IMG/VR virus record: IMGVR_UViG_3300021090_000514
Coordinates: 1-24,429 of that record
Origin: a virus
Length of the DNA stretch: 24,429 nucleotides
Strand: one strand, 5' to 3'
Shown: in pieces, positions 5,659 to 23,435 of the stretch
Position numbering within the stretch: position 1 is the first letter of the stretch
How the letters are laid out: each line of letters begins with the position of its first letter
Translations under genes and position numbers: made by a program
Notes under the pieces: generated by a model
Told to the model about the DNA's origin: nothing
The model's input: only the letters and a program-made list of their open reading frames with translations
The model's database searches: none

Positions 5659-5661
5659 CTA

Positions 5662-5967: not shown

Positions 5968-5976
5968 GGCCCCGCC

Positions 5977-6576
5977 TTACGGGATGAACCGATGCGGGAA
6001 CAGGTTGAGCAGCTTGAGCGATCCGGCCACCGGCAACTCGATGAACGAGCCGACGACCAGTGCTTCGGTCGCTCCGGTCACCGCGTCATTGGTATCGGTC
6101 GTGTCAACCGTGCCGGCCGCCGTGACCGCAATGCCGATGATTCCGACCGCGGCAGTCCGCGTGAGAGACGAAGCTTTACAGAGCACCGTCGCCACGCCAG
6201 AGACCTGGATGAATCCGTAGTTTCCCTTGGTCACGGAATTCAGGCAGACCCCGGCGATGCTTCCCCCTACGGTCGGGGCGTCCATGGTCACCGCGCCCTG
6301 GCCGGGCAGATCCGGGTCCCAGTAGCACACGAGGCCCTTGGTCGGGGCGAGGGTCGTCCCGGCCTTGAACTTCACGTACTGGTACCGGCCCGAATACAGG
6401 ACTCCGATGGTCGAGTCGTAGCTGATGACCTCCCCGGTGCGGAAGTCGATGGTCTGCCCGACCTGCCCCGGAAAGCGCCCGACCCCGCCGTCTTCGGCCG
6501 CCGAGTACGCGCCGCCAGCAGCGGCGTCGTTCACGTTGTTGATGCCAGTGGCGTTGATTACAGCAATTCCGTTCAT
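5977..6576 (-). CDS. Capsid decoration-like protein, 199 aa
   Basis: Start chosen at the ATG (MNGIAVINATG) after a strong AAAGGAGAGGAG; the longer in-frame extension would overlap the end of the capsid gene. The sequence is Gly/Ala/Val-rich and beta-like: YSGRYQYVKFKAGTTLAPTKGLVCYWD, GSIAGVCLNSVTKGNYGFIQVSGVATVLCKA. The pattern of a reactive or hydrated beta barrel after the major capsid protein matches phage decoration or head-fibre proteins. I infer a capsid-associated role. Confidence 0.65.
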   Translation of the reverse strand: MNGIAVINATGINNVNDAAAGGAYSAAEDGGVGRFPGQVGQTIDFRTGEVISYDSTIGVLYSGRYQYVKFKAGTTLAPTKGLVCYWDPDLPGQGAVTMDAPTVGGSIAGVCLNSVTKGNYGFIQVSGVATVLCKASSLTRTAAVGIIGIAVTAAGTVDTTDTNDAVTGATEALVVGSFIELPVAGSLKLLNLFPHRFIP

Positions 6577-6593
6577 CTGTTTTCTCCTCTCCT

Positions 6594-7709: not shown

Positions 7710-7732
7710 CGTGAACTCCTGAAATCAGGCTC

Positions 7733-8713
7733 TTATCTGCCCCCTGTTGCGCCGGTAGCGAAACGCTCCATCATGCCCTGAGCCGCTTTTGCAAGGTGGT
7801 TGTGGTGCTGTAAGGCCGTGTCCCCTTCGGGCGCACGGTTCTCTCGGTCGGTCAGGCCAAGCACGGGCGAGTGTGGCATCTCGGAGATGGAGCCGGGGAC
7901 CCTCGTCATGCGCTGCACGAGTTCCTGCTCCTTGACCTTCATTTCCGCATCGACCCGCTCTTTGACCTTGGCTTCGAAGTCGGAAGTGGCCCTCTCCTGG
8001 AGCTTGGCAGGGACCCCGTAGGCCTCCGACCAGACATCCTCCAGCGGGCGCCCCTGCTCCATGGCTTTCTTGAGCACTGGGGTCAACTCCGGCTCGGTCC
8101 CGAAGATGCTTCGATGCCGGGCGGCGATGTCTGCCACCTCGACGGCCCAGGCTGCTTGCCTGGACTCCATCTGCCGCATCTGATCGGTGATCTGCTCGGC
8201 CGTCAGGCCAACTTCCGCCGGCTGACGCCGCCCGCCGCCACCGCCACCCCCACCCCCGCCGTTCGCCGGCGCCGGGCGCCAGTCGGTGTCCATGGGGGAG
8301 AGAATGGCGGGGTCAACGCCGACTTCCTTGGGATCGAAACCGAACTCCTTTGCAGCTTTTACGAATCCTTCCCGCAGGGATTTCTCGCGGGCCTGGATCT
8401 CTTCCACCTTTTGGTTCGCTTCCAGCAGTTGTTGGTTTACGCCATCTTTCCACTGGGTGAGGGCGCCATAAGAGTTGACGGCCTTTTGTCGCAACTCTGT
8501 GATCTTCTGCATCTCCGCGTCTTTTTCACGCTTGAAGGCGTTCATCTGACGGCTGTAGTCTTCCTGCCGAAGGGACCCCGCGGCCTGCTCTTGGAGCGAC
8601 TTCGCGGCAGCTTCCGACCCGAGATGCTTGAGAATGACTTGCCTTTCGGCGTCGGGGATCTTGTCCGCCCCGCCGACGACTCCGGTAAGCCACTCTTCTA
8701 CTGTGAACGGCAT
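7733..8713 (-). CDS. Scaffolding protein, 326 aa
   Basis: ATG start with AGGAGAAAAAC just upstream. The product is highly charged and helical: long coiled-coil segments at residues about 45-115 (RQEDYSRQMNAFKREKDAEM) and 225-270 (DFEAKVKERVDAEMKVKEQ). A run of ten Gly at about residue 152 splits it into two helical halves. Position directly upstream of the major capsid gene plus this composition is typical of phage capsid scaffolds. No protease motif is visible. Confidence 0.75.
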   Translation of the reverse strand: MPFTVEEWLTGVVGGADKIPDAERQVILKHLGSEAAAKSLQEQAAGSLRQEDYSRQMNAFKREKDAEMQKITELRQKAVNSYGALTQWKDGVNQQLLEANQKVEEIQAREKSLREGFVKAAKEFGFDPKEVGVDPAILSPMDTDWRPAPANGGGGGGGGGGRRQPAEVGLTAEQITDQMRQMESRQAAWAVEVADIAARHRSIFGTEPELTPVLKKAMEQGRPLEDVWSEAYGVPAKLQERATSDFEAKVKERVDAEMKVKEQELVQRMTRVPGSISEMPHSPVLGLTDRENRAPEGDTALQHHNHLAKAAQGMMERFATGATGGR

Positions 8714-8788
8714 GTTTTTCTCCTGCCTTCCGGCTGATGCCGGTTCCGGCGACTTGCAAAATTCTCAACCCGGCTCGGCTTCTGGCGT
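8714..8788 (-). promoter_or_regulatory. Scaffold-gene leader with alternative hairpins
   Basis: On the minus strand the leader holds GCCGG, CCGGC and GCCGG blocks (at 8750-8746, 8743-8739 and 8734-8730). The middle block can pair with either neighbour, leaving a 2-nt or a 4-nt loop. The second pairing ends about 7 bases before the AGGAG ribosome-binding site. No separate gene is seen here. Whether the two folds matter is unknown. Confidence 0.3.
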
Positions 8789-9085
8789 CTACCCCATGGT
8801 TCCTGGGGGCGTGCGCTGTCGGCTTCCGGTTTGAGCTGTGACCAAGACGTTCTGTGCCATATCATCGATCGCATTTCCAGCTACCTCGGCTTGATCGGCC
8901 ACGCCAGGAAACTGGCGGGCAACCCCGTCGATGATGGTGCGTGCCTGGAAAAGCTGTTCGAGGATGCCCCGGACGGCTTCCATCGGGTCCTGCTGGGGCG
9001 GCTGCGGTTGAGCCGACAAAGCCTGCAGAGCCGGTGGTCCGCCTTGTCCGGGCAGAGCGGGGAGCGGTTGTAGAGGAGCGCCCAC
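8789..9085 (-). CDS. Pro/Gln-rich small phage protein, 98 aa
   Basis: I take the GTG start that overlaps the TAG of the upstream 30-codon gene (TAGTG); a longer ATG version would run across that gene. The N-terminal 35 residues are Pro/Gln/Leu low complexity (VGAPLQPLPALPGQGG). The C-terminal part is an amphipathic helix pair (MEAVRGILEQLFQARTIIDG, ADQAEVAGNAIDDMAQNVL). It precedes the scaffold gene and could be a scaffold partner or minor head protein; this is inference. Confidence 0.55.
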   Translation of the reverse strand: MGAPLQPLPALPGQGGPPALQALSAQPQPPQQDPMEAVRGILEQLFQARTIIDGVARQFPGVADQAEVAGNAIDDMAQNVLVTAQTGSRQRTPPGTMG

Positions 9086-9177
9086 TAGCGTTTGCCGCCG
9101 GGCCGCTTCGGAGGACCTTTCGGTGCCCCCTTCGAGCCCATCGGAGTATTCATGCACTCGCCCTTCATCTTCGCCAT
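9085..9177 (-). CDS. Tiny basic protein, 30 aa
   Basis: ATG start with AGGAGG four bases upstream, one of the best ribosome-binding sites in the window. The product (MAKMKGECMNTPMGSKGAPK...) is Lys/Pro/Gly-rich with a pI well above neutral and no hydrophobic segment. Its TAG shares a base with the GTG of the next gene. Short Lys-rich peptides of this kind occur near phage capsid genes, but I do not know a function. Confidence 0.5.
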   Translation of the reverse strand: MAKMKGECMNTPMGSKGAPKGPPKRPGGKR

Positions 9178-9185
9178 GGAGCCTC

Positions 9186-9386
9186 CTATCGTTTCACTGG
9201 GCTGCGACGTGCCGAGGTCCGTTTTGGCTGGCCGTAATGCACGACCGAATTCGCCGCTCGGATGGCTCTTGCGTCATCCCCGGTTCGCTTGAGAACGGAA
9301 TCGGCGACGTGAGCCCACTGGCGAGATTTCGTTGCACCGCCAGAGAACTTCGTGTGCCTCTTCGCATCTTTCGCTTTCCAGGGCAT
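9186..9386 (-). CDS. Small basic conserved phage protein (MPWKAKDAKRHTK type), 66 aa
   Basis: Start at the ATG giving MPWKAKDAKRHTKFSGG; the longer in-frame form would be read through a terminator stem. The order MPW-K-K-RHTK, then QWAHVADSVLKRTGD and AIRAANSVV, matches a widespread family of small basic phage and bacterial proteins whose name I do not recall with certainty. The ATG follows the U-tract of an intrinsic terminator by about 8 bases and lacks a good ribosome-binding site, so expression may depend on read-through. Confidence 0.6.
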   Translation of the reverse strand: MPWKAKDAKRHTKFSGGATKSRQWAHVADSVLKRTGDDARAIRAANSVVHYGQPKRTSARRSPVKR

Positions 9387-9395
9387 AGCCCCAAT

Positions 9396-9443
9396 AAAAA
9401 AGGCCGGCTGGCGCGGGGGATCAGGGTCCCGCACCAACCGGCC
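9396..9443 (-). terminator. Strong intrinsic terminator
   Basis: On the minus strand a 16-bp stem (GGCCGGTTGGTGCGGG with CCCGCGCCAGCCGGCC, two G-U wobbles) closes a 10-nt loop and is followed at once by TTTTTTATT. It separates the packaging genes from the capsid genes. It lies about 50 bases downstream of a TTGACA promoter, so it may act as an attenuator for the capsid operon or end a short RNA. Confidence 0.85.
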
Positions 9444-9492
9444 AGCAACGCTCACCGCATTTCTGCGGAACGTGCTTAGACCTTTACAGCCA
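9396..9492 (-). ncRNA. Putative short leader RNA / sRNA (~97 nt)
   Basis: Bounded by a promoter (TTGACA at 9527-9522, CATACA at 9504-9499) and the intrinsic terminator. If transcription starts about 7 bases after the -10, the product is close to 97 nt and encodes no convincing peptide. It could be a regulatory RNA or an attenuated leader of the capsid operon that is relieved by antitermination. This is inference from the two signals. Confidence 0.4.
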
Positions 9493-9498
9493 ACTAAG

Positions 9499-9527
9499 TG
9501 TATGCGCTATTACGGGTGGGATGTCAA
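9499..9527 (-). promoter_or_regulatory. Sigma70-like promoter before the capsid operon
   Basis: Consensus -35 TTGACA, exactly 17 bases of spacer, then CATACA as a weak -10. It lies in the only sizeable gap (9387-9618) of the minus-strand structural region, pointing toward the capsid genes. The -10 matches only three of six consensus bases. Confidence 0.5.
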
Positions 9528-9618
9528 GTGGATTCTAGATTTTAGTGGCCCGGCCCGATCGTCGCGCTCAAGCGTCGTTGTGACCTGGCCACCTGTTCGG
9601 AAGTGAGTTGACCTGAGT

Positions 9619-9834
9619 CTACTTCCAAAGCGCGTCCCAGTCAACCTCAATCTCAATTACCTTCCGGTCCCCCATGCGCCAGGTGAAGTTCTCACAGAGG
9701 CCGCCGCTGTTGAAGTTCAGCACCAGCTCCCCGGTCAGCTTGCGATCCTTGATGATCTTTGGGAAGCACCCGGAGATGGAGATCATGTCCTTGGCGTTCT
9801 GGCCGTGGAGTTCGCGGGTGACGCGGGCCTTCAT
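9619..9834 (-). CDS. Hypothetical protein after portal, 71 aa
   Basis: The ATG overlaps the portal stop (ATGA). A small alpha/beta protein with a basic start (MKARVTRELHGQNAKDMISI) and a beta C-terminal half (GELVLNFNSGGLCENFTWRMGDRKVIEIEVDW). No membrane segment and no recognised family. It ends the packaging transcription block ahead of the terminator. The gap 9387-9618 after it contains the promoter and terminator listed separately and no other gene that I can see. Confidence 0.65.
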   Translation of the reverse strand: MKARVTRELHGQNAKDMISISGCFPKIIKDRKLTGELVLNFNSGGLCENFTWRMGDRKVIEIEVDWDALWK

Positions 9835-11933
9835 CGGCTTTCGGATATGATCGGTCTCGTGCCGCCATCACGGGTTTCCATGTGGGGCGCGACCTGCGCT
9901 GAAGGCTGCCTGCCTTCGTTCCGGTGGGGCATCCCGGCTGGAGGCTGTTCTGATCCGTTTGTCGGTTGCCCTCCACCTGGGGCCGGAGGCCCGCCCATCC
10001 CGGCCTGCGATAGAATCATGGACGCGATCAATTGAGCTTGGGCCTGCGTTGCCGCCGTGAACTTGGTGCTCTCTTCCATCCACGCCTTCCACTTGTCGTG
10101 GATCGTGAGCGCGTTCGCGGGCGCTTCACCGAACGGGATGTCGAACTCCTTGCCGATGGTCCACGGGTCGATCGGGTAGCCCGAGCGCCACAGTTGCAGA
10201 ATTTTCAACTGGCGCTGGGTCTGGGTGATCTGGTGCGCGGTGTGCGGGACCACGTTGAAGTTGAACAGCTTGTAGAACTGCCGCAGGCGCTCCCCTATCG
10301 GCGTCGGCGAGGCTTTGCTTTGATCTTCCCCGGGCAGGTGTGAGGGGCAGATGCTCCCTGGCTCATAGGTGAAGTCCTCTTTGCTCAGGCCGTCTTTGCC
10401 GCGAATGTCAAAGCGCCGCCGGGCCGTGTAGTGGGTGAAGAACATCGGGAGCCAAAGCTGCCCGAGTTGTCCCAGGCTGCGCTCGATCGACCGCGAGATG
10501 TCCGTGACGATCGGCCCAGAAGCCTCGAGCAGCCGCTCGACCGACTCGCCGGCTGGGATCTGCGCCGCCCGCGCCATGGCCGAGATGTCGGGCAGGGCCA
10601 GCAGGTAATCCATCTGCTGCGGGTAGAATTCCATCAGCATCTTGAGAGCTTCTGGAGGGATGCGGTAGGCGTTCTCTCCCATCAGGGTGCGGATGGGATC
10701 CTGGGACATCGTGAAGTCCATCTTGACCTTCACGCCGGGCTGTCGTGGATCGAACACGTCCATTAGGGCCTGGTCCACGGCGTTCTGGTCATAGCCCATT
10801 GGTGGACGTAGGCCAGCGTTGAGCCGGTCCTGAATGTTCCGAGCCACCTCGTTCATCCCCTTTTGGAGCGGTGCCCCATCCTTGACGGCTGAGAAGCCCA
10901 GGAACTCCCACGGCCAGTCATCGGTCGAGAACTTGGCGAGGGGCACGCGGCCATCCCACCGCGGGGAGGTATTGTCGTAGAAGATGCAGGACGAGCAGCA
11001 CTCGATCAGACGCCGGTAGGGATACATCCGGCAGTCCTCGAAGTCGGATTTGCGGGTCAGGACTCGGCCCTGCTGGTCTCGGATGTTGGTCGGGATCTCC
11101 TGGCCCAGGTAGGGCACCTCGTAGTACCAGGCGCTTCCCGGCTCACCCATCGGGATCATGTGGCCTGAAGTGTTGATCGAGGTGTCGAGCACGTAGCCGT
11201 GGCAGATATCCACCGTGGGGTAGCCGACTGGGACATCTTCTTTCTCGCGCTCGGAGAGCTGGAGCACGGGCGACATGAACCGGCTCAGACGGGTCATGCC
11301 CCGGCGTAGCATTGAGGGTTCGTCGCGGTCGGGCTTGATGCGGCCCTGGAACCGGGGATACATGGCACGAGCTACGTTGATTGGCGTCTCGATGATGACC
11401 CAGACGATGTAGGCTTTCTGGATGTCCATGTCCCGTGGAAGCTGGACCGGCTTGACGTCTTTGGGGCCGAAGATGTTGAGCCGGATATCGCCGCGCCCGG
11501 GCGCCCAGAAGTTGTTGTCCCAGGTCGGGTAGGCCCAACCGGTTCCAAGCGAGACCGCCCACTGGATCGCCTTTTTCACATCCTGATCGGCGAACGTCCC
11601 GGTCCACCAGGACTCCCAGCACTTGTTGACGATATCCTCTTCGCGGATGTAGTTGCGATCGCCGACCTTGTAGTTCCACTCGGGCCGGATGTTCGATTCC
11701 ACCGCGACGATCTCGCGCACCTGGCGCTTGAGCCGGTTGATGTAGATGTCGCTCAGGCTGGACGGGATCTTCTCGGACTCTTCCCCGGAGAGGATGTCGA
11801 GCGCGATCTTGTGGTCCTTGTAGCCCCGCTGGGACTTTAGGAAATTGTCGCCTTCCTGGATGGACTCGCGGATGTAGCCGAGGCGCTCGGTTTCCGGGGC
11901 CGTGCGGGGAGGGATGATCCAGTCACGAGGCAT
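9831..11933 (-). CDS. Portal protein, 700 aa
   Basis: The ATG shares a base with the lysozyme stop (TGATG). Length and order fit large podovirus-type portals: an N-terminal helix (ETERLGYIRESIQEGDNFL), wing-like segments with YINRLKRQVREIVAVESNIRP, a stem/crown region rich in Trp and Tyr, helical PPEALKMLMEFYPQQMDYLLALPDISAMARA, and a disordered C terminus rich in Pro, Gly and Gln (GGPPAPGGGQPTNGSEQPPAG). It would form the dodecameric ring at the DNA-entry vertex and bind the terminase encoded upstream. Confidence 0.8.
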   Translation of the reverse strand: MPRDWIIPPRTAPETERLGYIRESIQEGDNFLKSQRGYKDHKIALDILSGEESEKIPSSLSDIYINRLKRQVREIVAVESNIRPEWNYKVGDRNYIREEDIVNKCWESWWTGTFADQDVKKAIQWAVSLGTGWAYPTWDNNFWAPGRGDIRLNIFGPKDVKPVQLPRDMDIQKAYIVWVIIETPINVARAMYPRFQGRIKPDRDEPSMLRRGMTRLSRFMSPVLQLSEREKEDVPVGYPTVDICHGYVLDTSINTSGHMIPMGEPGSAWYYEVPYLGQEIPTNIRDQQGRVLTRKSDFEDCRMYPYRRLIECCSSCIFYDNTSPRWDGRVPLAKFSTDDWPWEFLGFSAVKDGAPLQKGMNEVARNIQDRLNAGLRPPMGYDQNAVDQALMDVFDPRQPGVKVKMDFTMSQDPIRTLMGENAYRIPPEALKMLMEFYPQQMDYLLALPDISAMARAAQIPAGESVERLLEASGPIVTDISRSIERSLGQLGQLWLPMFFTHYTARRRFDIRGKDGLSKEDFTYEPGSICPSHLPGEDQSKASPTPIGERLRQFYKLFNFNVVPHTAHQITQTQRQLKILQLWRSGYPIDPWTIGKEFDIPFGEAPANALTIHDKWKAWMEESTKFTAATQAQAQLIASMILSQAGMGGPPAPGGGQPTNGSEQPPAGMPHRNEGRQPSAQVAPHMETRDGGTRPIISESR

Positions 11934-12367
11934 CAGGCGCTCTCACCGTTGAATAACCGCATCTCAGCCTCCCGCCGTGCCGTCAGGCCGGCGAGTTGCT
12001 TACCGCCGGACTTGTCCCATCTCGTGAACTCGCGCGACGCCCGCTCGTATTGGTACTCGTTCAACAGTTGCAACAGGGTCGAGCCCACGAATGCTCCCAC
12101 GCCGATATTGTAGATGAGGTTCACTAGGGCGTCGAACTGCTCTTGCTTTAGGGGCACCTTGACGTACTGGTTGACCACAAGTTCGGCTTCTTGAATGTCT
12201 ACCTGGAGCAGTTCGGCGGCCTCTTCCGGCGTGACGACGCTGCCCTCTTCGATCTCTTTGCCGTGGTGCCCGTAGCCGATCGAGAAGCCGTCCCCGTCCG
12301 GATAGGCGTAGGCACTGAAGCCTTCGGAGTGTTTCAAGAGGGCGAGGCCATGCTCAGAGAGTGTCAA
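11933..12367 (-). CDS. Endolysin, GH24 (T4-type) lysozyme, 144 aa
   Basis: TTG start with an AGAGG stretch upstream. The protein matches the T4/P22-type muramidase family over its whole length. LKHSEGF holds the catalytic Glu (E15), AYPDGDGFSIGYGHHG holds the second acid (D24) and the GYGH signature, and later come ALVNLIYNIGVGAF and a C-terminal AGLTARREAEMRLF. It would cleave peptidoglycan for lysis. There is no signal-anchor, so a holin would be needed. It sits between packaging genes and the portal, away from any evident holin. Confidence 0.93.
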   Translation of the reverse strand: MTLSEHGLALLKHSEGFSAYAYPDGDGFSIGYGHHGKEIEEGSVVTPEEAAELLQVDIQEAELVVNQYVKVPLKQEQFDALVNLIYNIGVGAFVGSTLLQLLNEYQYERASREFTRWDKSGGKQLAGLTARREAEMRLFNGESA

Positions 12368-12548
12368 CTTCGCCCTCTCTTTCTTGCCGCGTGATTTCTT
12401 CTTCGTCGCGGCGCATGTGCGCGTGGTCGCACTCGCAGAGGCGGGGCTGGCCGCACTTTGAGCACCGGTCCACTTTATCTTTGGTGCGCTCGCGCCACCT
12501 AACGAGCATCGCGTCCATTTCTTCGAGGGTCACGATTTGGTACGGCAC
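12354..12548 (-). CDS. Small CxxC protein, 64 aa
   Basis: GTG start three bases after the upstream stop. The middle carries RCSKCGQPRLCECDH, a Cys/His cluster that could bind zinc, followed by a highly charged helix (MRRDEEEITRQEREGEV). The end overlaps the TTG of the lysozyme by 14 bases. Unknown role. Confidence 0.6.
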   Translation of the reverse strand: MPYQIVTLEEMDAMLVRWRERTKDKVDRCSKCGQPRLCECDHAHMRRDEEEITRQEREGEVDTL

Positions 12549-12551
12549 GCC

Positions 12552-13112
12552 CTACCACCGCTGCCCCTTCCAGTCCGTGTCCCGGTCCCGATAGATCGCC
12601 CGGTTGGACTGATCTTTGTGGAGGACCTCCAGGAAGAAGTCCGACCCGTTGCCGTTCTTCCGTGGCATCTCATCGGTGCGGCGCATCGCGGCTTCCGCCA
12701 TGGCCCGCCCGAAGGAGCTCATGTGCTTGATACCCGGCAGCGTCTTGAGGGTCCCGTCCGGCATCCGTTGCGAGAAGCCGTTCCGCAGGTCTGACCGCAG
12801 TTTCGACCGAGCCTCTTCCGACATCTGCTGCTCGCGCTCGACGTAGCGCTGGTTACGGCTGCGCTCGGAGGCGTTGAAAGTGCGCTCGAATTGCTCCATC
12901 TGCCGGATGGTCGTGAGTTCCACGCGCTCGAATCCCTTGGGAGGCTTGGCGTCGGAGCGACCCGGGAAGCTCACATTGCCGGCACTGTCGCGGAAGACTA
13001 CGACGGGGCGGAAGCCCGCCCGGCGAGCCGGTTGGCCATGGTCGGCTGGATTTCCCTTGCAGAACGGAAACATCCCCACTTCCAGTTTAGCCTTGCAGTT
13101 TTTGCAAGTCAT
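12552..13112 (-). CDS. Zinc-ribbon phage protein, 186 aa
   Basis: I use the ATG that overlaps the upstream stop (ATGA); a GTG three codons earlier is the alternative. The first 22 residues hold CKNCKAKLEVGMFPFC, a zinc-ribbon-like cluster. A central charged helical region follows (LTTIRQMEQFERTFNASERSRNQRYVEREQQMSEEARS), then a basic tail. Proteins of this layout are often found next to terminase or portal genes in podoviruses, but I cannot name a function. Confidence 0.65.
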   Translation of the reverse strand: MTCKNCKAKLEVGMFPFCKGNPADHGQPARRAGFRPVVVFRDSAGNVSFPGRSDAKPPKGFERVELTTIRQMEQFERTFNASERSRNQRYVEREQQMSEEARSKLRSDLRNGFSQRMPDGTLKTLPGIKHMSSFGRAMAEAAMRRTDEMPRKNGNGSDFFLEVLHKDQSNRAIYRDRDTDWKGQRW

Positions 13113-13510
13113 CGCGGCCACATCTCCGGGTCAGAAGGCTTGGACCAGTACAGCAGCTCCGGCTTCCCGGAGGGCGGAGAGACGGCGCTGTAGATCGGAA
13201 ACTTCTCGTTGTCCACACCTTTCAGGGTGAACAGGGTGTCGGGTAGGTATGGGCCCAAGTCGAGATAGCCTGGATTCTTGTCTAATTCGGATTGAGTTAG
13301 ATTTCGGACTAACTCGTAAGGGCCAGTACCGACCTGTTTCCAGACCTGGATCACGGTCGGGTCTGGGCCTCCGGCCGCATCTACGTGGATGGTGAAGCCC
13401 CCTAGAATGCTCCTTGGTGCCGGAGGCGTCGGTGTAGCCGCCGGCGTGGCCTTCGCCAGCCCGAGGGCCGCAAGGATCGTGCCGAAAAAGGTGCGCCTGG
13501 TGGTTGTCAT
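13109..13510 (-). CDS. Tat-signal exported protein, 133 aa
   Basis: The ATG opens a classic twin-arginine leader: TTRRTFFGTILAALGLAKATPA, with RR followed by FF and a hydrophobic core, then an Ala-Pro linker (residues 23-33). The mature part (GGFTIHVDAAGGPDPTVIQVWKQ..) is a small beta domain of about 95 residues. Tat leaders are rare in phages and imply folded export to the periplasm of a diderm host. It sits between the terminase and lysozyme genes, so a lysis or envelope role is possible. The ATG has no nearby ribosome-binding site. Confidence 0.7.
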   Translation of the reverse strand: MTTTRRTFFGTILAALGLAKATPAATPTPPAPRSILGGFTIHVDAAGGPDPTVIQVWKQVGTGPYELVRNLTQSELDKNPGYLDLGPYLPDTLFTLKGVDNEKFPIYSAVSPPSGKPELLYWSKPSDPEMWPR

Positions 13511-13633
13511 GGTGGTTTGTACGCTGGGCGACTTCGCTACGAAGTTATCATCCCAAGAGATGGCGCGCCGCCCAGCGTGGCTCTGACTTATCCGACCACC
13601 TCCTTCCCGATGAGGGTGTTGACGTTCACGATA
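13511..13633. promoter_or_regulatory. Structured leader of the Tat-protein gene
   Basis: The 123-base gap has no gene. On the minus strand it holds AAGGAGGTGG, an excellent Shine-Dalgarno stretch with no ATG after it. Next comes a 10-bp inverted repeat (ACGCTGGGCG at 13521-13530, CGCCCAGCGT at 13569-13578), which encloses a nested 6-bp hairpin (ACTTCG/CGAAGT, 13531-13545). The frame after the strong ribosome site stays open into the Tat gene. The structure could bring the site nearer to the true start or regulate it. Confidence 0.45.
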
Positions 13634-15763
13634 TTACACCGAAAACGGGTCCCGCGGGGACTGTCCGAACAACTCCCGGCGCTCGGCGCTCCCTGGCAGC
13701 AGATCCCGGACCTGTTGCCCAAAGCTGTACTCCTCATGCTCGACCACAACCTGCTGGCCTTCGATGCGGCGGTGCCCGAACATGGGAAGGAAGTTGTGCC
13801 CCACATAATGCAGGCTCAGAAACGCATAGGCGAGCGCCATCACCCGATCATCGAAGCCGCCGTAGGCGGCCTGAACATTGCGAACTGCCGTGTCTTTTTC
13901 AAGGTTTGAGAACTCGCCCAGCAGCCACGGTGAGTCGATTTCGATGTTGTAGTCCTTGAGGGCCTTGAGGGTGAACTCCAGGGCCATCGTCCTGAACCAA
14001 TGGACGCCCATCACGCCGAGGCGCGTTGCCTTGGACTGATCGATGATCTTGCGATCCGTTCGCATCCACTGGTGGAAGTGACGCCAGCCGAGGTTCCGCA
14101 GCGCCACCTGGGTTGACTCGCCGTTCGCGCCCACGTCGATGACCATCTTGGCCTGCACGCGCCGGCCGGAGACCGTGGGCGAGTAGAACGTCCCGATCGC
14201 GTAGGCGAAGGGGGTCAGGTCAGAGGCAGCCACCGAGTCGCTTGCAAATTCTGCAACCTGGCCGGGGTAGCGGTCGACAGCGGCCCGGCGCAAGACTTCG
14301 AGAGCTGAGCGGTCTTGGGCCACACCCCAGCCGGTATCTACGCCCATGCCGTACTGATAATTCTTATTGGGCCACTCCCAGATGTAGATACGGCCCATCG
14401 GGTCGTCGAAGTCGTAGCCGCGGAACTTGAGCGGCAGCATGGTGTACCGCGCTCCGCTTTCGGTCTTGACCTCGAAAGGCTTGCGCTCCGCGTCGACGTC
14501 GCGGCGATTGGCCTGGAGGCGCAGCGGGATTTCGTCGGTCTTGCCGATCAGGCCGTAGACGCCGAGCGGCGCCCGCGCGTGCTCGCGGTAGACTTCAATG
14601 GTCTCGGTATCGAAGATTGAGTCGTTGGCGTGCTGGAAGGACTGCTCGGCCGAGGCCGGCATCTCGCTGAAGAATTTGTTGAGCGTCTTGTTCTCGCGGG
14701 CGCTTTCGTATTCTGATTCCCAGAACCACATCTGGTGGACAGGCATCTGCCATCCGGCACCCAAGTGCTTCTTCAGGAGCGGCTGCTCGTCCACGTACTG
14801 CGTGGCCCGGCGGGCGTGATTCACCGTCATCTCATTGGGCTTCCACTGGTAGGGGATGGGGTGCTTCTTGAGCCACGTTTCGGTGGGATAGAGGTCGGAG
14901 CCAACGAACCAGGGCAGAAACACGGGCCGCTCATCGGCGGTGCCCTTGGCCCAGTTGCGGACGTTGGCCCGCCACTTCTCGTGCCACCAGTCGTTCATCA
15001 TGCGGGCGGTGGATTCGTAGACCTTGAGCATTCCCGGCGAGGCGTGCATGGCGAACTTGAGGCCCGCTTCGATCTTGTTCTTCGGGTCGTCACAGTAGGC
15101 CGCTTCCGAGACCAGGGCCAAGCGCTTCGTCCCGCTGCGGCCGAGATCGCTCTTCTGGTTGAGCCACTCGATACGCAGGCGCGAGTCCATCTTTCCGAAC
15201 TCGATCAACTCCCCCGCCTGGTAGCCGGTATTCTCGGGGACCAGGTACCAGGGCTGGTTGAGCCACATGCGCATCGGGATCTGGGAGAGGTCCGCCGACT
15301 TCTTTTCGTCCTGCGCCGCCATGAGCGCCGTGGTGTGCTTATAGAACTGGACGCGGTGGACGATGGCCGAGAGGACGATGGTGCTCACGCCAAGCTGGCG
15401 GGCCTTGTCGGACTGCTGTTCGGTTGCGACCCCGCGCTCTTCATCCTCGGCCCAGGTGTCGAGCAGGATGTTCTGAGCGATGTTGGGGACGAGGTAGACG
15501 AGGCTCCCGCCTTCCATCGCCATGATCTTGCAGTAGCGCTCGGCCCAGTAGCGCCACCAAAGGGTGCAGTAGAGCCGCTCCTGCCTGATCCACAGGATCT
15601 CTTCATCGGTGAGTGGCCGGCGCAGCTTGCCGTTTTCTTCGGCGAGGGCGTGGATCTCGGCAGCCCGCTGGCGCACCTCGGAGGCGGGCCGGATGTCCGG
15701 CGTCCAGCCGCGTTTGGTGCAGGCTTTAGCTATATGCTCTTGGGAGAGTCGGTCGGAGTACAC
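13634..15763 (-). CDS. terL: Terminase large subunit, 709 aa
   Basis: GTG start three bases after the upstream stop. The ATPase domain carries the terminase-type Walker A (KARQLGVST, residues 120-128), Walker B ending in Glu (LALVSE, 215-220) and the coupling motif (YESTA, 249-253). The RNaseH-like nuclease domain has GVDTGWG (Asp476), a middle acid in VIDVGANG (about Asp543) and the C-terminal GGFDDR (Asp638/639). The product packages and cuts phage DNA at the portal, whose gene lies four genes downstream. The long N-terminal extension of about 100 residues is typical of podovirus-like terminases. Confidence 0.92.
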   Translation of the reverse strand: MYSDRLSQEHIAKACTKRGWTPDIRPASEVRQRAAEIHALAEENGKLRRPLTDEEILWIRQERLYCTLWWRYWAERYCKIMAMEGGSLVYLVPNIAQNILLDTWAEDEERGVATEQQSDKARQLGVSTIVLSAIVHRVQFYKHTTALMAAQDEKKSADLSQIPMRMWLNQPWYLVPENTGYQAGELIEFGKMDSRLRIEWLNQKSDLGRSGTKRLALVSEAAYCDDPKNKIEAGLKFAMHASPGMLKVYESTARMMNDWWHEKWRANVRNWAKGTADERPVFLPWFVGSDLYPTETWLKKHPIPYQWKPNEMTVNHARRATQYVDEQPLLKKHLGAGWQMPVHQMWFWESEYESARENKTLNKFFSEMPASAEQSFQHANDSIFDTETIEVYREHARAPLGVYGLIGKTDEIPLRLQANRRDVDAERKPFEVKTESGARYTMLPLKFRGYDFDDPMGRIYIWEWPNKNYQYGMGVDTGWGVAQDRSALEVLRRAAVDRYPGQVAEFASDSVAASDLTPFAYAIGTFYSPTVSGRRVQAKMVIDVGANGESTQVALRNLGWRHFHQWMRTDRKIIDQSKATRLGVMGVHWFRTMALEFTLKALKDYNIEIDSPWLLGEFSNLEKDTAVRNVQAAYGGFDDRVMALAYAFLSLHYVGHNFLPMFGHRRIEGQQVVVEHEEYSFGQQVRDLLPGSAERRELFGQSPRDPFSV

Positions 15764-15766
15764 GGC

Positions 15767-16315
15767 TTAGGCATCTCCCGCCGCATCTTCCTCGGGGCTT
15801 GGCAGCTTGGGAGCCATCACGGGCGGACCGCCGGCGTTGACCTGCTGATTGAACTGGAAGGTATGGCCCTGCGGCATCGGGAACCGGCCCGCGGCGCGGA
15901 AGGCCATCTCCATGAACTTCGGGTTGGTGGACTTCAGGGCTTTATCAACCAGCTTCGCAGTCAACTCCGGCTGCGCGATCGCCAGCATGAGTTGCCCCAT
16001 GTCGATGTGGAAGGCGATACCGCCCTTGACGAGCTCCCCCATGAAGTCGGCGTGGCTGATGCGGACCTGCGAGCACAGGGTCTCGATCCTGGTGGTCTGC
16101 TGGATGCCGGGACTCAGGCCGTCCCACAGGGTCACCATCTCGGCGAGGCGCTTGTCGCTCGAGCGCCTGGCGAGTTCCATCATCTCGTTCCGGCCGCCAA
16201 GCAGGTCGGCATAGTAGTCGAGGCCGGGGTGTCCCGAGAAGCGCACAAGGGCGTTCGGGCCGGGAGGGACCTGACCCTTGGCGATGTCGTAGACGCGGCG
16301 GCTACCTTTCCTCAC
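15767..16315 (-). CDS. Probable small terminase subunit, 182 aa
   Basis: GTG start overlapping the upstream stop (GTGA). The protein is largely helical (YYADLLGGRNEMMELARRSSDKRLAEMVTLWDG, CSQVRISHADFMGELVKGG), with a Pro/Gly-rich acidic tail. Directly preceding the large terminase gene is the usual place of the DNA-recognition subunit, and the RIETLCSQVRISHADFMGEL stretch could be a helix-turn-helix. The call rests on position and composition rather than a clear motif. Confidence 0.5.
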   Translation of the reverse strand: MRKGSRRVYDIAKGQVPPGPNALVRFSGHPGLDYYADLLGGRNEMMELARRSSDKRLAEMVTLWDGLSPGIQQTTRIETLCSQVRISHADFMGELVKGGIAFHIDMGQLMLAIAQPELTAKLVDKALKSTNPKFMEMAFRAAGRFPMPQGHTFQFNQQVNAGGPPVMAPKLPSPEEDAAGDA

Positions 16316-16578
16316 TCCCCCTCCGTAGCCCCGAGCCTGGCATCCTGCTTCCCGAACTTCGGCTTGTTGGGGCCGTATAGCCCTTCCCAGGTTTTCATCT
16401 CCTGATCGTAGGCTTTGGCGTCAGTCATCTGGCTCAAGGCTTCCACCCCGATCTTACCCGGTTTCTTGACCAGTGGCGCAGGGAAGGCTCGTTCGGCACA
16501 GGCGGCGAGACGCTCCAGAGCATCGGCGATCCGGCCTAGTTGAGTCCGCGAAATTTGCAGGTTCAGCAGGGGTCCCAT
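16312..16578 (-). CDS. Hypothetical helical protein, 88 aa
   Basis: ATG start with AGAGG upstream. An N-terminal amphipathic helix (LQISRTQLGRIADALERLAACAERAF) is followed by a basic linker and an acidic-aromatic helix (AKAYDQEMKTWEGLYGPN). No recognised family. It overlaps the next gene's GTG, so it is translated together with the probable small terminase. Confidence 0.6.
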   Translation of the reverse strand: MGPLLNLQISRTQLGRIADALERLAACAERAFPAPLVKKPGKIGVEALSQMTDAKAYDQEMKTWEGLYGPNKPKFGKQDARLGATEGE

Positions 16579-16579
16579 A

Positions 16580-16963
16580 CTACCTCTTGTCCCACGGAGC
16601 CTCCCCGGCCTTGTAGTCAGTCATGTCCTGGATCACTCCGTCCCGGTGCACGATGTCCTTCGACGGTGGTTGGATGCCAGCCTCTTCCCGCGCCGCCCCG
16701 GGCCGGGTCTGAAGGGCCGCCCCGATCTTGAGTTTGCGAGTGACTTTCTCTCCAGGGAAGTCGGCCGGGATGGTGTCGGCTTCGACGTGTCGCTGGACCT
16801 CGGTGGTTGAGCTATGTGGCGTCGTGAGGGTCAGGTCGCAGGAGAAGGCGAAGTGGGGGTGGGTGATGGCGACGGAGAACTCGGGCATCTCGGAGAGGTC
16901 GCGGCGCAGCTTCGCCAAGATGTATTCGAGTACTTCGTGACCGCAGAGGGCGGTGGCTGCCAT
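16580..16963 (-). CDS. Hypothetical protein, 127 aa
   Basis: The ATG directly follows the TAG of the previous gene, with GGAGG five bases before. It starts helical (ALCGHEVLEYILAKLRRDL), then has a beta region (VAITHPHFAFSCDLTLTTPHSSTTEVQRHVE) and a charged flexible C-terminal half. It is not recognised; it belongs with the adjacent small genes between the regulatory cluster and packaging. Confidence 0.6.
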   Translation of the reverse strand: MAATALCGHEVLEYILAKLRRDLSEMPEFSVAITHPHFAFSCDLTLTTPHSSTTEVQRHVEADTIPADFPGEKVTRKLKIGAALQTRPGAAREEAGIQPPSKDIVHRDGVIQDMTDYKAGEAPWDKR

Positions 16964-17443
16964 CTACGCCTCCACCGTCTCCGGCGTGAGTTCCAGTTCT
17001 TCCTGGGTCTCGCCGCCCTGCAACTCACCCTGGACTTTGAGTTCCGGGATGGGGTTGCGCTTGAGTTCGAGCAGGACGTTGAAGGCGTGCTTGTCGGCGT
17101 TCATCGTGAACTTGATCTTGCAGAGCGCGATGCCGTCACGTTCGAAGAAGATGACGGCTTTGACCCGGCCCTTGAGCGCCACCGGCTCGGCGCCGGGGTA
17201 TATCGTGACCGTCACCAGGGCATCCCGGACCTGGAGGCCCGGGTTGAAGGTCTTGAAGGGGCGCAGGTAGGGGTTCTCGCCTTCGCGCCAGAGGGCGTGG
17301 TAGGCGTTCTCGCACAGGTCGCGGCAGTTGGCCGGGGAGACCTGGGATTCAAAGTGCATGGTGACAAACACATCGTCACCGGCGTACCCGATGCCGCTAC
17401 CGGAGACACGGGCGCCTTGGAGCGTTACGTCGATGTTGGACAT
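16964..17443 (-). CDS. Hypothetical protein, 159 aa
   Basis: Start chosen at MSNIDVTLQ after AGGAG; an upstream in-frame extension would lie over the 48-aa zinc-ribbon gene. A mixed alpha/beta domain has VFVTMHFESQVSPANCRDLCENAYHAL, VRDALVTVTIYPG and KIKFTMNADKHAFNVLLELKRN, and then an acidic Glu/Gln-rich tail. The tail resembles those of phage single-stranded-DNA-binding or recombination proteins, but the core does not show a diagnostic motif. Confidence 0.6.
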   Translation of the reverse strand: MSNIDVTLQGARVSGSGIGYAGDDVFVTMHFESQVSPANCRDLCENAYHALWREGENPYLRPFKTFNPGLQVRDALVTVTIYPGAEPVALKGRVKAVIFFERDGIALCKIKFTMNADKHAFNVLLELKRNPIPELKVQGELQGGETQEELELTPETVEA

Positions 17444-17571
17444 CCTGACTCCTTTGGTTGCAAAATTTTCGAACATCTCTCGCAAAGGATGGCGGCCTGA
17501 ATCACCTGCCACCACTTCAAATCCAGGAGCACGGTCTCACCGCACATGGCGCACGGGTATTCGCGCTCCAT
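17425..17571 (-). CDS. Mini zinc-ribbon protein, 48 aa
   Basis: The ATG overlaps the XRE stop by one base (TGATG). The product has YPCAMCGE near the start and CERCSK about 20 residues later, the two CxxC knuckles of a zinc ribbon, separated by a tryptophan-rich helix (LLDLKWWQVIQAAIL). The gene is too short for routine ORF cut-offs, but its start overlap and zinc motif support it. A nucleic-acid-binding or small regulatory role is plausible. Confidence 0.65.
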   Translation of the reverse strand: MEREYPCAMCGETVLLDLKWWQVIQAAILCERCSKILQPKESGCPTST

Positions 17572-17816
17572 CAATATCTCCAGTCCACCGGATACTTTCT
17601 CTTTTCAGTCTTACTCATCACGCTCTCGACCGTCTTGGCCAGGTCCCGGATCCTCCGCGAGTGCAGCCGGCGGGGAACCGCTAAGTTCGACTCCCACCTT
17701 GACACTGTAATCTTGTGCGCCCCTACCTGCTTCCCGAACTGGCCCTGGGTCAGTTTCATTGCCCGGCGGAGGCTCCGGATCATCTGGCCGGAAGTTTTTG
17801 TCGGCGCGTCTCTCAT
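17571..17816 (-). CDS. XRE-family helix-turn-helix regulator, 81 aa
   Basis: ATG start well inside the preceding zinc-ribbon frame. The HTH is clear: MIRSLRRAMKLTQGQFGKQV, then GAHKITVSRWESNLAVP, the usual LTQxxFGxxxGxxxxTVSRWE signature of Cro/C1-type DNA-binding proteins. A basic C-terminal tail follows. Its stop overlaps the next gene, which supports this frame as real. A phage transcription switch or transcription factor is likely; its operator is unknown. Confidence 0.75.
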   Translation of the reverse strand: MRDAPTKTSGQMIRSLRRAMKLTQGQFGKQVGAHKITVSRWESNLAVPRRLHSRRIRDLAKTVESVMSKTEKRKYPVDWRY

Positions 17817-18072
17817 AGAACTTGACCATTTTCCGGAGCGCCCGCCCGAAGGTCGGGGCCGTCTGCATGAGCCAGGCGCGAGCCCGGCCGCAGCGGAGGC
17901 AGGGGCAGTAGGGGTTCTTCGGATCGTGGGGAAAGCTGCGCTTGCGGCCTTTTTGCCACCCGCGGCGGCGCATAGGGTCCCTGGTTCTGGCAAGAAATGA
18001 CGCGATCTCCGATCGCGTGATGGTCACTTCTCCTGAGCAGTGGGGGCATAGGATGCGGAAGGGGGAAGGCAC
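17611..18072 (-). CDS. Zinc-ribbon protein overlapping the XRE gene, 153 aa
   Basis: ATG start with a CPHCSG knuckle at residues 9-14 and CPCLRCGRARAW at about 56-67, so a zinc ribbon is likely. Positions 17816-17611 are shared with the XRE gene in another frame, and there the sequence becomes Pro/Gly-rich low complexity. The real functional part may be the first 90 residues, with the tail tolerated as overprint. It follows an intact small gene in the same direction. Confidence 0.55.
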   Translation of the reverse strand: MPSPFRILCPHCSGEVTITRSEIASFLARTRDPMRRRGWQKGRKRSFPHDPKNPYCPCLRCGRARAWLMQTAPTFGRALRKMVKFYERRADKNFRPDDPEPPPGNETDPGPVREAGRGAQDYSVKVGVELSGSPPAALAEDPGPGQDGRERDE

Positions 18073-18267
18073 TCACGTTCCTAGCTTTCCGGCGAACAGG
18101 TCGGTGATCCATTTTCCGGCGCCCTCGAAGAACTGCTTGGCCGCAACGCGGTCTTTGATGCCTTCCATGATGAGGGCCTGGCCGGCGGGAGTCTGTGCCA
18201 GCTTACAGCCTTCCGAGACAGCCTCGGAGACGGCCTTAATGGTGAGCAGGATGGTTTCAGGGTTCAT
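18073..18267 (-). CDS. Hypothetical amphipathic protein, 64 aa
   Basis: Start at the ATG that follows GGAGG by eight bases (MNPETILLTIKAVSEAVSEG); a GTG-started version 12 codons longer is less supported. Two helices (LLTIKAVSEAVSEGCKLAQ and KDRVAAKQFFEGAGKWITDLFAG) suggest a small membrane-associated or oligomeric protein. The function is unknown. Confidence 0.55.
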   Translation of the reverse strand: MNPETILLTIKAVSEAVSEGCKLAQTPAGQALIMEGIKDRVAAKQFFEGAGKWITDLFAGKLGT

Positions 18268-18324
18268 CTTAACAGCCTCCGGCGACCCGGGCGAATTGCT
18301 CACGGCAGAACGAGCGGTCGGAGA

Positions 18325-18984
18325 TCATGGCATCTCCATGATCTGCCTGCCGATGAACTCAGAGTAGGCTGGCGGGATGGCTTGGCTGAGTTCCGCAACT
18401 GTCATCCACGGGATACCGAGGGCTTCCCTGGATTCGGAAACGCAGCCCTTGTATCCCTTACGGTTTGGCGCGAAACGATTTTGGAACCCGCCTCCGTTTC
18501 CATAAACTCCGATCTTCTCGATGCCATCACACTGGCAGCAGGGGCCGATTATCAGCCTACTGCTCTCAAAGAGCCGGTGCCTGCGAAGCGGCCGGCGTAT
18601 GCCATCCGCGCATTGCGCCCCAAGGCCAAACGAGGCGCCGCAAAGAACCAAAGGGAATCGCATGGGTGCCCCCGGCACGTTTTCGATGCACCACTCGGAA
18701 TCGGACCCCATGAGTATGTCTCGTAGCGCATTTACCAGCATCGGGTATTCTTTACGTTGCTTTGGGCGCGACTGCGAGACGCTGTATGCTTGGCACGGCG
18801 GGCTAGCCCAGATAAAGTCGAACCAAGCCAGCGGGAAGATCATTGCGTCGGCCTGCACGAAAGAGTCTCCGCAGTACCGCGGCTGCGGCTTGATATCCAC
18901 GCCCGTGACGTGGAAGCCGGCGCGCTGTAAGCCCTTTGTTGCCCCGCCCGCACCGCAGAATAAGTCAAGGGCTCGCAGCCTCAT
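18325..18984 (-). CDS. DNA cytosine-5 methyltransferase, compact, 219 aa
   Basis: The motifs of the family are in order: I, LDLFCGAGG (residues 6-14); IV, ASPPCQAYS with catalytic Cys64; VI, ENV (101-103); VIII, RRHRLFE (134-140); and a C-terminal SEFIGRQI (motif X-like). At 219 residues it is shorter than typical m5C enzymes, so the target-recognition region (about 141-195) is small. No cognate restriction gene is visible. It probably protects phage DNA from host restriction. A 15-codon frame (19028-18981) precedes the start and overlaps it at ATGA, so coupling is possible. Confidence 0.88.
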   Translation of the reverse strand: MRLRALDLFCGAGGATKGLQRAGFHVTGVDIKPQPRYCGDSFVQADAMIFPLAWFDFIWASPPCQAYSVSQSRPKQRKEYPMLVNALRDILMGSDSEWCIENVPGAPMRFPLVLCGASFGLGAQCADGIRRPLRRHRLFESSRLIIGPCCQCDGIEKIGVYGNGGGFQNRFAPNRKGYKGCVSESREALGIPWMTVAELSQAIPPAYSEFIGRQIMEMP

Positions 18985-19028
18985 ATCCGGCTCAGCCTTT
19001 CCCGCTCCGTCTCCTTTAGCAAAATCAT

Positions 19029-19466
19029 CTACTCATCCCCAGGCAGACCGCAGCCTGCAATCTGGCGGGGCGACATTCCGCGATAGGGGTCGGGAGCATC
19101 CGGGCCGATCGGCCGGCAGAAGGGGCGGTCCTCCGGGATGGGGGCCTGGCGGTCGCCGCCCGGCAGTCCCAGGCGGCGAAGGCGCTCGCGCTCGGCGACG
19201 GGATCTTCGAGGGCGGTCCGGGGAGCCCCCGCAGGCTCCCCGGGCTCAGGCTGCTGCGGAGCTTTCACCCTTCCTGCAGCAGAGCTGTTAACGCCGGGGA
19301 CCTTCATGCTGTCGATCCAGGCGTCAAGATCGGCTGCGGCGAACATCCACTGGCCCCGGACTTCGAAGTGGGTGGGTGGCCGTTCCTCGACGAGGGCCAG
19401 GAAGTCCTTGGTTTTGATCCCGAGGTAGCGGGCGGCCTGGAGGCGGCTCAGGAGTTTCGTCGGCAT
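19029..19466 (-). CDS. Excisionase-type HTH DNA-binding protein, 145 aa
   Basis: The N-terminal 50 residues (LLSRLQAARYLGIKTKDFLALV.. through FAAADLDAWIDSMK) fit the MerR/excisionase-type HTH_17 fold: AARYLGI then a wing ending LDAWI. The remaining 95 residues are Pro/Gly/Arg-rich and flexible. This could be an excisionase (Xis) or another DNA-bending regulator. No integrase is in the window to decide. The start overlaps the end of the upstream coiled-coil gene. Confidence 0.7.
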   Translation of the reverse strand: MPTKLLSRLQAARYLGIKTKDFLALVEERPPTHFEVRGQWMFAAADLDAWIDSMKVPGVNSSAAGRVKAPQQPEPGEPAGAPRTALEDPVAERERLRRLGLPGGDRQAPIPEDRPFCRPIGPDAPDPYRGMSPRQIAGCGLPGDE

Positions 19467-21803: not shown

Positions 21804-22079
21804 TTATTGTGTGCTGTCTACTGCTTGTTTCAGCCGTTCGGCCGAAGTCTGAATCTTACCAGTCGCCTCACGCACCCGGGCTGTGAGGTCATCGATGATG
21901 CTCTGGTCGATGTCGGGAAGGTCGGTGACCGTCACCAGAGCTTCGATGCGCCCGAGTTGGTCGACGATCTCGGTCTCTCTCTGTAGGATCAGATACGTAT
22001 TCGTCTCGATCCTGACCAACTGGCTTCGCCTGGTGATGAGCTCGTTCAAGATGTTGAGAAGAATGCTGGATATACTCAC
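21804..22079 (-). CDS. Small coiled-coil protein, 91 aa
   Basis: I use the GTG (VSISSILLNILNELI) that overlaps the upstream stop (GTGA); the longer frame would lie over the 57-aa gene. Almost entirely helical: NTYLILQRETEIVDQLGRIEAL, then a DLPDIDQSIIDDLTARVREATGKIQTSAERLKQ amphipathic helix. Likely an oligomeric phage accessory protein, function unknown. Confidence 0.6.
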   Translation of the reverse strand: MSISSILLNILNELITRRSQLVRIETNTYLILQRETEIVDQLGRIEALVTVTDLPDIDQSIIDDLTARVREATGKIQTSAERLKQAVDSTQ

Positions 22080-22249
22080 GGCTTCACCTCGGTTGCGGAT
22101 TTTGCAGGTTCGCACATGCACCGGCTCGGGACTGGTACGTAACTCAATCGACGGATGAACGCGCACGGAGCCTGTATCCACGTCTGAAGCGCGACAGAGA
22201 AGAATATCAATCCTAATCCCGCGATTAAAATGGTGGCAGCATCCCTCAT
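22076..22249 (-). CDS. Small single-TM protein, 57 aa
   Basis: The ATG overlaps the stop of the ribbon-helix-helix frame (ATGA). One TM segment (AATILIAGLGLIFFSVALQTWI, residues 4-25) precedes a short Cys/Pro/Arg-containing tail. The stop overlaps the next GTG. The tight overlaps on both sides support a real gene. Role unknown; envelope protein or exclusion/lysis accessory possible. Confidence 0.55.
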   Translation of the reverse strand: MRDAATILIAGLGLIFFSVALQTWIQAPCAFIRRLSYVPVPSRCMCEPAKSATEVKP

Positions 22250-22866
22250 CCCCGTCGCCCCCTCCGTTCCTGACTGAAATCCTCGTCCGGGAAGTCCTGA
22301 CTCACCGCTTCCCCGGGCCGGACCCTGGCGCCCGCGAGCCGCGCTTCGTTCCGGAGCTGGAAGGCCGCTTTCGGGAGCGGGGCGATCGGCCGGCGCTCTG
22401 GCTGTCCAGGAGAGTAGGCCCCTCCGGCTTCCCGCTCAGACTCCCCTCGAGCGCCACCGCTGCGTTTGCCATCATCACTGCTTCCCGGACCTTCCCCAGC
22501 GAGTCCACCATGTCGGCGCAGTCCGGCGTCTCCCGGAGTATCACCCCCGCAAACACCTTCGCAGCCCGCCGTATCCGCTCGTACTTCCCCCCCTGCTCCT
22601 TCGTAGGCGCGTGATACTCGAACACCCAGTCTAGATCGATCCAACTCCCCCGCTTCCCCCGTCTCACCACCTTGCACCTCCCCGGCCACCAGCCCAGTCG
22701 AATTTTTTGCCCACTCCACCAACGCCGCCTCCACCGCCTCACCCCACCCCAACTCCAGCCTCACCGCTTTCTGCCTCGCCGCGCGTGCCACCTCTCGCGC
22801 TACCCACACGTTCAACCTCGTGTGCGTCGCCGGTGCATCCCGCCGCTTTTGCTCCATTTGCTCCAT
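22246..22866 (-). CDS. Ribbon-helix-helix DNA-binding protein with long tail, 206 aa
   Basis: I chose the ATG at 22866 because the apparent TTG start further upstream is itself the -35 box of a promoter; GTG at 22875 and ATG at 22857 remain possible. Residues 12-55 fit a ribbon-helix-helix: strand TRLNVWV, helix AREVARAARQKAVRLELG, then WGEAVEAALVEWAKN. The remaining 150 residues are Gly/Arg/Glu-rich, low complexity, and share DNA with the Acb2-like gene in another frame. The stop overlaps the next ATG, so the frame is probably used to the end. A repressor of the divergent region is a natural guess. Confidence 0.6.
   Translation of the reverse strand: MEQMEQKRRDAPATHTRLNVWVAREVARAARQKAVRLELGWGEAVEAALVEWAKNSTGLVAGEVQGGETGEAGELDRSRLGVRVSRAYEGAGGEVRADTAGCEGVCGGDTPGDAGLRRHGGLAGEGPGSSDDGKRSGGARGESEREAGGAYSPGQPERRPIAPLPKAAFQLRNEARLAGARVRPGEAVSQDFPDEDFSQERRGRRG
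22302..22670 (-). CDS. acb2: Acb2-like anti-CBASS sponge (nested gene), 122 aa
   Basis: Read in a different frame from the ribbon-helix-helix gene. The GTG at 22670 has GGGGAGG six bases upstream. Residues about 14-75 hold FEYHAPTKEQ, KYERIRRAAKVFAGVIL, PDCAD and LGKVREAVMMANAAVALEG. This fits the Acb2 hairpin family: F.YH.P, then Y..IR..AK..A, then L.K..EAVM.ANA..A. Acb2 proteins form hexamers that sequester cyclic nucleotides made by CBASS (and some Thoeris signals), blocking host anti-phage defence. The last 45 residues are Ser/Arg/Pro-rich and probably an overprinted tail. The symbol marks family resemblance. Confidence 0.75.
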   Translation of the reverse strand: MVRRGKRGSWIDLDWVFEYHAPTKEQGGKYERIRRAAKVFAGVILRETPDCADMVDSLGKVREAVMMANAAVALEGSLSGKPEGPTLLDSQSAGRSPRSRKRPSSSGTKRGSRAPGSGPGKR

Positions 22867-22875
22867 TTGCTCCAC
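22849..22875 (-). repeat. Triplicate 9-bp tandem repeat
   Basis: Three copies of (G/A)TGGAGCAA on the minus strand, coding for (V/M)EQ repeats at the N terminus of the ribbon-helix-helix protein. Each copy holds GGAG and, in two copies, an ATG, so start choice could vary with repeat number. Confidence 0.6.
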
Positions 22876-22882
22876 GCGCCGT

Positions 22883-22911
22883 ATTATGCGCTCTTGCTCC
22901 AAAGTTGTCAA
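22883..22911 (-). promoter_or_regulatory. Strong sigma70-like promoter of the minus-strand block
   Basis: Perfect -35 TTGACA, 17-base spacer, and CATAAT (5 of 6). A start about 7 bases on would fall at 22876, next to the GTG and ATG codons of the repeat, so the RNA would be leaderless or nearly so. This is the best promoter match in the window and it lies over the apparent 5' end of the ribbon-helix-helix ORF. Confidence 0.75.
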
Positions 22912-23272: not shown

Positions 23273-23361
23273 GGTGTCAGGCTTGACACGTTTATCTAAG
23301 GTGTCAGATTTTGCTGACAGTGTCAGGTTTGGCTGACGGTGGTGTCAGGTTGAGGTGTCAG
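23273..23361. repeat. TGTCAG / CTGACA operator or iteron array
   Basis: Five direct copies of TGTCAG (23275, 23302, 23321, 23343, 23356), most within GGTGTCAG, and inverted copies CTGACA (23314) and CTGACG (23333). CTGACA-G-TGTCAG (23314-23326) is a perfect palindrome around a central G. A TTGACA at 23283 resembles a half-site. Immediately followed by AT-rich DNA and two promoters, this looks like a binding array for a repressor, activator or replication initiator. Confidence 0.7.
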
Positions 23362-23406
23362 TAGATTATTCTTCTATCCTTCTGTCTACTCCTGTCATTT
23401 TTGCGC

Positions 23407-23435
23407 TTGACATCGGGATGGGGTGGGAGTATGGT
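23407..23435 (+). promoter_or_regulatory. Plus-strand promoter P1
   Basis: Perfect -35 TTGACA, 17-base spacer and TATGGT (4 of 6). Lies about 50 bases downstream of the TGTCAG array and upstream of the first well-supported plus-strand gene. Confidence 0.6.

Follow-up and report, generated by a model that had tools for sequence, protein, structure and literature searches.

Near one end of a viral DNA stretch of 24,429 nucleotides (nt; IMG/VR record IMGVR_UViG_3300021090_000514, positions 1 to 24,429; hereafter the window), two long open reading frames (ORFs) share the same letters on the minus strand. Are both of them genes, or does one only run through the other? A preliminary description, made from the sequence alone, had proposed an Acb2-like gene at 22302-22670, directed against the cyclic oligonucleotide-based antiphage signaling system (CBASS) and overprinted within a ribbon-helix-helix (RHH) gene. 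The shorter frame, of 122 amino acids (aa), is a real gene of the Acb2/Tad1 hairpin family, as revealed by its reading frame, family profile, fold, coding signature and ribosome-binding site. Its product is most likely a cyclic-oligonucleotide sponge, judging from its homologues and a structural model.

The 122-aa frame starts with a GTG at 22670-22668 and ends with a TGA at 22302-22304. Six nt upstream of the GTG, a Shine-Dalgarno-like GGGGAGG (22677-22683, minus strand) can be read directly. The coordinates, lengths and motifs given previously for this frame were right, with FEYHAP, YERIRRAAK and KVREAVMMANAAVA found exactly as quoted; the strand, which had been left unstated, is minus.

Comparison with the Pfam family PF24729 (Acb2/Tad1, hairpin domain) gave a match at E = 1.7e-9 and 38.2 bits, above the curated cut-off of 27 bits, covering profile positions 2-57 of 58. 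In PHROGs, two families of unknown function were matched (E = 9e-16 and 2.5e-10). Hundreds of phage homologues were found, with 45-62% identity across ~65-75 residues; because of these and the PF24729 match, the frame is beyond chance. Matches by tblastn included Myrna-type mycobacteriophages (50-53%), the Tunturiibacter phage Tunturi_1 (47%) and Gordonia phages (44%). Two profile-guided scans of IMG/VR confirmed 318 and 251 relatives (overlapping sets, the best 80 kept from each), and 23 more came from prokaryote genomes; a plasmid search returned no match. The conserved hairpin core (22440-22622, minus strand), as delimited by alignment, model and codon usage, extends from F17 to just past A73 and comprises an F-x-Y-H motif at the N-terminal end and a pair of long antiparallel helices. 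Three residues were invariant among 78 aligned sequences (F17, A68 and N69), and Y19, H20, P22, Y30, R34, P49, A57, E63, V65, M66, A70 and A73 were nearly so.

The AlphaFold model of the protein, a monomer predicted from an alignment that left out the loci of GenBank phages, had a predicted local distance difference test score (pLDDT) of 89.5. Helices were placed at residues 13-16, 24-47 and 52-73, in a block with pLDDT 90-99. The predicted layout is that of the family: a short helix at the N-terminus, then a long antiparallel helix pair. A Foldseek search against 350,542 PDB chains, the structure-level check that had been proposed earlier, returned chains of phage T4 Vs.4 with cyclic GMP-AMP at ranks 1-3 (probability 0.66-0.85, E = 0.45-0.65) and Acb2 (8h2j) at rank 8. 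Against BFVD, rank 1 was the Acb2/Tad1 hairpin protein of phage Phabba (E = 1.7e-5, probability 1.00). The assignment to the Acb2 family was thereby borne out at the levels of sequence, profile and structure.

Ten minus-strand ORFs of the window served to train codon models, and coding signal was expressed as log-odds against non-coding DNA per segment. A codon scan with antisense and non-coding states was noisy in short windows, hence the per-segment values; a three-frame scan showed the same frame switches. Over the hairpin (22671-22441), log-odds were +10.5 in the Acb2 frame versus -21.4 in the long frame, so that a coding signature in the shared DNA was found in one frame and not in both. 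From 22440 to 22303, the Acb2 frame fell to -3.3 and the long frame rose to +4.5. Codon signal thus supports the hairpin well but not the tail of the 122-aa frame, and the flanking signals are weak. Nearly all relatives end 1-4 residues past the hairpin, and translation of the last ~45 aa of the frame (22302-22439, minus strand) is doubtful.

Among solved structures, Vs.4 of phage T4 (7uq2) was the best match to the model. Sequence identity to Vs.4 and to Acb2 of Pseudomonas phages PaMx33 and PaMx41 (8h2x, 8h2j) is near the limit (with Vs.4, ~18% in the fold alignment). Unlike these proteins, the window protein belongs to an F-x-Y-H-[AP]-P branch. A PDB search with the family profile retrieved Acb2 homolog 43 (9ptq, 76 aa) at E = 7e-4 to 9e-4; Vs.4 and Tad1 matched weakly, below the threshold. 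The match to homolog 43 covers 60 of 71 positions and aligns both the F..H start and the hairpin, but homolog 43 lacks the Y-H-A-P and T-A-N-A motifs. Closer in sequence are gp101 of Tunturi_1 (XJP11592.1) and the Myrna and Phabba proteins (gp211; YP_010056887.1), which are 47-53% identical to the window protein across the hairpin and annotated as hypothetical in their records. Tunturi_1 gp101 is a stand-alone, non-nested ATG gene of 71 aa that ends at the hairpin. The Myrna-type proteins continue with an unrelated tail of ~70 aa.

Some family members carry additional N-terminal sequence. In one relative (L006, 2752-3207), a Cys-rich stretch (CECG...CLAC) is in frame with the Acb2 hairpin, possibly as a zinc-ribbon fusion. 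Genomes of Paenibacillus and Cohnella encode Acb2-hairpin proteins (L104, L105 and L106) with in-frame N-terminal extensions of at least 55 aa; in L106, the extension resembles a common small domain of phages, joined to the hairpin.

The locus most likely encodes one functional protein, read on the minus strand from 22670 to ~22440 (or 22302). This Acb2/Tad1 hairpin protein is small and all-helical and, by analogy with the characterized relatives, would act as a cyclic-oligonucleotide sponge. It would be expressed from a promoter at 22911-22883 and, like T4 Vs.4 and Pseudomonas phage Acb2, may form a compact oligomer in the course of infection, functional Acb2 being a homo-hexamer. The oligomer would bind the cyclic di- or trinucleotides that a CBASS-type enzyme of the host produces, or some related cyclic-nucleotide signal. 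The bound nucleotides would be held and not cleaved, so that the suicide effector would stay off, an anti-CBASS effect. Several points weigh against this reading. Ligands vary within the family and are not deducible from sequence, and translation from the GTG at 22670 is something we infer. The C-terminal tail of the 122-aa frame is unusual, and the contig is a metagenomic fragment without a close relative. Owing to the small size and helical nature of the protein, the PDB Foldseek search gave weak E-values (0.45).

The variation in ligands bears on the nature of the signal. The Pfam family joins Acb2 with Tad1, Tad1 binds glycocyclic ADP-ribose (gcADPR) as well as CBASS nucleotides, and Acb2 homologues differ in their ligands (PMC12043709). 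A sponge of the same fold for a non-CBASS signal, for example the gcADPR of Thoeris or the 2',3'-c-di-AMP of Panoptes-type systems, is thus a possibility, to which we give limited credence. Tad1 (8kbb-8kbh, 7uav) has the C-terminal hairpin in common with the window protein; profile matches were weak and spanned ~20 residues. However, the N-terminal beta-sheet domain of Tad1 is absent from the window protein, in which only 16 residues precede F-x-Y-H, and both sequence and structure matches are nearer to Acb2 homologues than to Tad1.

The long frame was given in the ORF listing as 22246-22911 (221 aa, TTG start), with the Acb2 frame wholly inside it in the -1 register. The listed TTG is part of the -35 hexamer of a sigma-70-like promoter site (TTGACA-N17-CATAAT, 11 of 12 positions; 22883-22911, minus strand) ahead of both frames; the ATG at 22866 or at 22857 is therefore a likelier start. 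From the ATG at 22866, the frame (22246-22866, minus strand) encodes 206 aa, with an RHH-like start followed by a stop-free run through Acb2. The RHH-like stretch, from 22866 to ~22700, lies entirely upstream of Acb2, and only the run-on of the long frame overlaps it. Over the first 54 codons (22866-22705), the long-frame log-odds were +2.7.

The RHH label was not borne out. The upstream frame had no match in Pfam (E up to 5), NCBIfam (10), PHROGs (1) or among phage genomes, and no credible, significant match in the PDB. By eye, TRLNVWVAREVARAARQKAVRLELGWGEAVEAALVEWA could form a strand-helix-helix, which is unproven. A single-sequence model of the upstream protein had helices at 14-37 and 41-60, no strand, and a pLDDT of 79.6. 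The identity as an RHH repressor was set aside as unproven, as no RHH profile matched.

The upstream frame has no stop codon ahead of Acb2. One explanation, which we regard as unlikely, is that it is cut short by a -1 slip, either programmed or an assembly indel, at GCA AAA AAT (~22710-22702). This site conforms to the slip pattern X XXY YYZ, and the slip would lead into the third frame, whose TGA overlaps the tandem GTG where Acb2 starts. Because the third frame ends exactly there, the two genes would then be coupled in the usual order. Acb2 itself would end right after the hairpin if a like indel were present near 22440, and a third-frame TGA is also found just past the hairpin, where relatives stop. 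Third-frame stops are a common occurrence, though, and the few codons ahead of the Acb2 start mildly favour the unslipped frame. Searches found no independent assembly or relative of the site.

Could both frames be translated through the shared DNA? The geometry that had been described is correct (22246-22911 spans 22302-22670), but the co-existence of the two frames is not beyond chance. Among relatives with a G+C content of at least 60%, the -1 frame was open over the hairpin in 15 of 37, and in 29 of 56 with more loci included; the +1 frame was never open. As about half of these G+C-rich relatives have an open -1 frame, the fact that it is open here is no sign of dual coding. In synonymous resampling of the window protein, the -1 frame was open over the hairpin in 8-13% of trials (P = 0.08-0.13), and over the whole 122-aa frame, the tail of which is perhaps non-coding, in 2-5%. 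For two relatives, it was open over the hairpin in 38-45% of trials (P = 0.38-0.45).

An upstream, gene-like frame passing through Acb2 was found in other relatives as well. At locus L031 (2691-3245), a -1 frame crosses the entire Acb2 gene and ends at a TGATG with the start of the next gene, an arrangement similar to that of the window. It is RHH-like by eye, and Pfam gave a sub-threshold, unrelated match only. The upstream frame through Acb2 at a second locus (L110) is nuclease-like by eye. BLAST showed no similarity between the L031 upstream protein and its counterpart in the window. The layout recurs, and the partners differ. Long-frame peptides at other loci do resemble one another, most simply because the underlying Acb2 DNA is homologous.

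True dual coding would make the RHH-like protein really ~206 aa long, with its C-terminal part sharing the Acb2 DNA, both products important and the stop set at the start of the next gene (ATGA). It is consistent with the stop-free run from 22866 to 22246, the overlap of the long-frame TGA with an ATG, the L031 layout, and mildly coding log-odds before the hairpin and after it (+5.6 for 22428-22249). Within the hairpin, however, the long frame is strongly non-coding; the open -1 frame among G+C-rich relatives, the resampling results and the dissimilar L031 protein also argue against it. Searches with the run-on matched nothing, and if translated, it is without evidence of function. Dual coding is thus improbable, and beyond ORF geometry the proposed overprinting within an RHH gene found no support. 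Most likely, the long frame is a small upstream gene that stays open through Acb2 by chance in G+C-rich DNA. A nested pair, in which a co-expressed regulator has an extended frame that contains the entire sponge gene and the two are inseparable, has a similar geometry at L031 in its favour and is very improbable.

Downstream, a short ORF (22079-22249, minus strand) has an ATG overlapping the TGA of the long frame (ATGA). As read directly, it contains one membrane-like hydrophobic segment (MRDAATILIAGLGLIFFSVALQTW...); it had no family match, and codon usage gave it no support.

The closest isolates by portal and terminase were Tunturi_1 and Tunturi_2 (~30% identity each), which infect an acidobacterial host (Acidobacteriota, Tunturiibacter). 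The Acb2 relative of Tunturi_1 has its start on the final base of the gene before it, ~2 kb before the terminase on the circular map; in the window, Acb2 is ~6.5 kb before the terminase. Searches of IMG/VR with the terminase, the major head protein, the RHH-like protein and the exact junction DNA pattern retrieved no close relative. The portal retrieved one relative (L186, IMGVR_UViG_3300042196_000161), with 43% identity in the portal, 43% in the terminase and 51% in the head protein. It is syntenic with window positions 2932-19466, from the head genes to the gene at 19032. Acb2 was not found in this contig, which ends before the Acb2 region. Together, this contig and the window point to a phage group that has not been described before and is a distant relative of the Tunturi phages.

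Elsewhere in the window, three tandem copies of a ~21-nt near-palindromic unit, GTGTCAG...GCTGAC-GT, were found at 23301-23362. Just after them, in a long gene-poor stretch, is a plus-strand TTGACA-N17-TATGGT (23407-23435), and the whole looks like an operator/promoter region. The gene at 18325-18984 encodes a C-5 cytosine DNA methyltransferase (PF00145, E = 2.9e-7; phrog_363, E = 2e-31), possibly with an anti-restriction role.

The Acb2/Tad1 family is already known, and the window gene adds a further member. For annotation, it illustrates a pitfall: because roughly half of G+C-rich Acb2 genes have an open -1 frame, a longest-ORF rule could bury short Acb2 genes, and a long -1 frame could pass for overprinting. 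The gene adds a probable counter-defence function to a phage that is itself uncultured; its nearest isolates are phages of Acidobacteriota, where such genes have been little studied. The presence of Acb2 relatives both in this phage and in Tunturi_1 suggests that cyclic-nucleotide immunity acts on this phage group.
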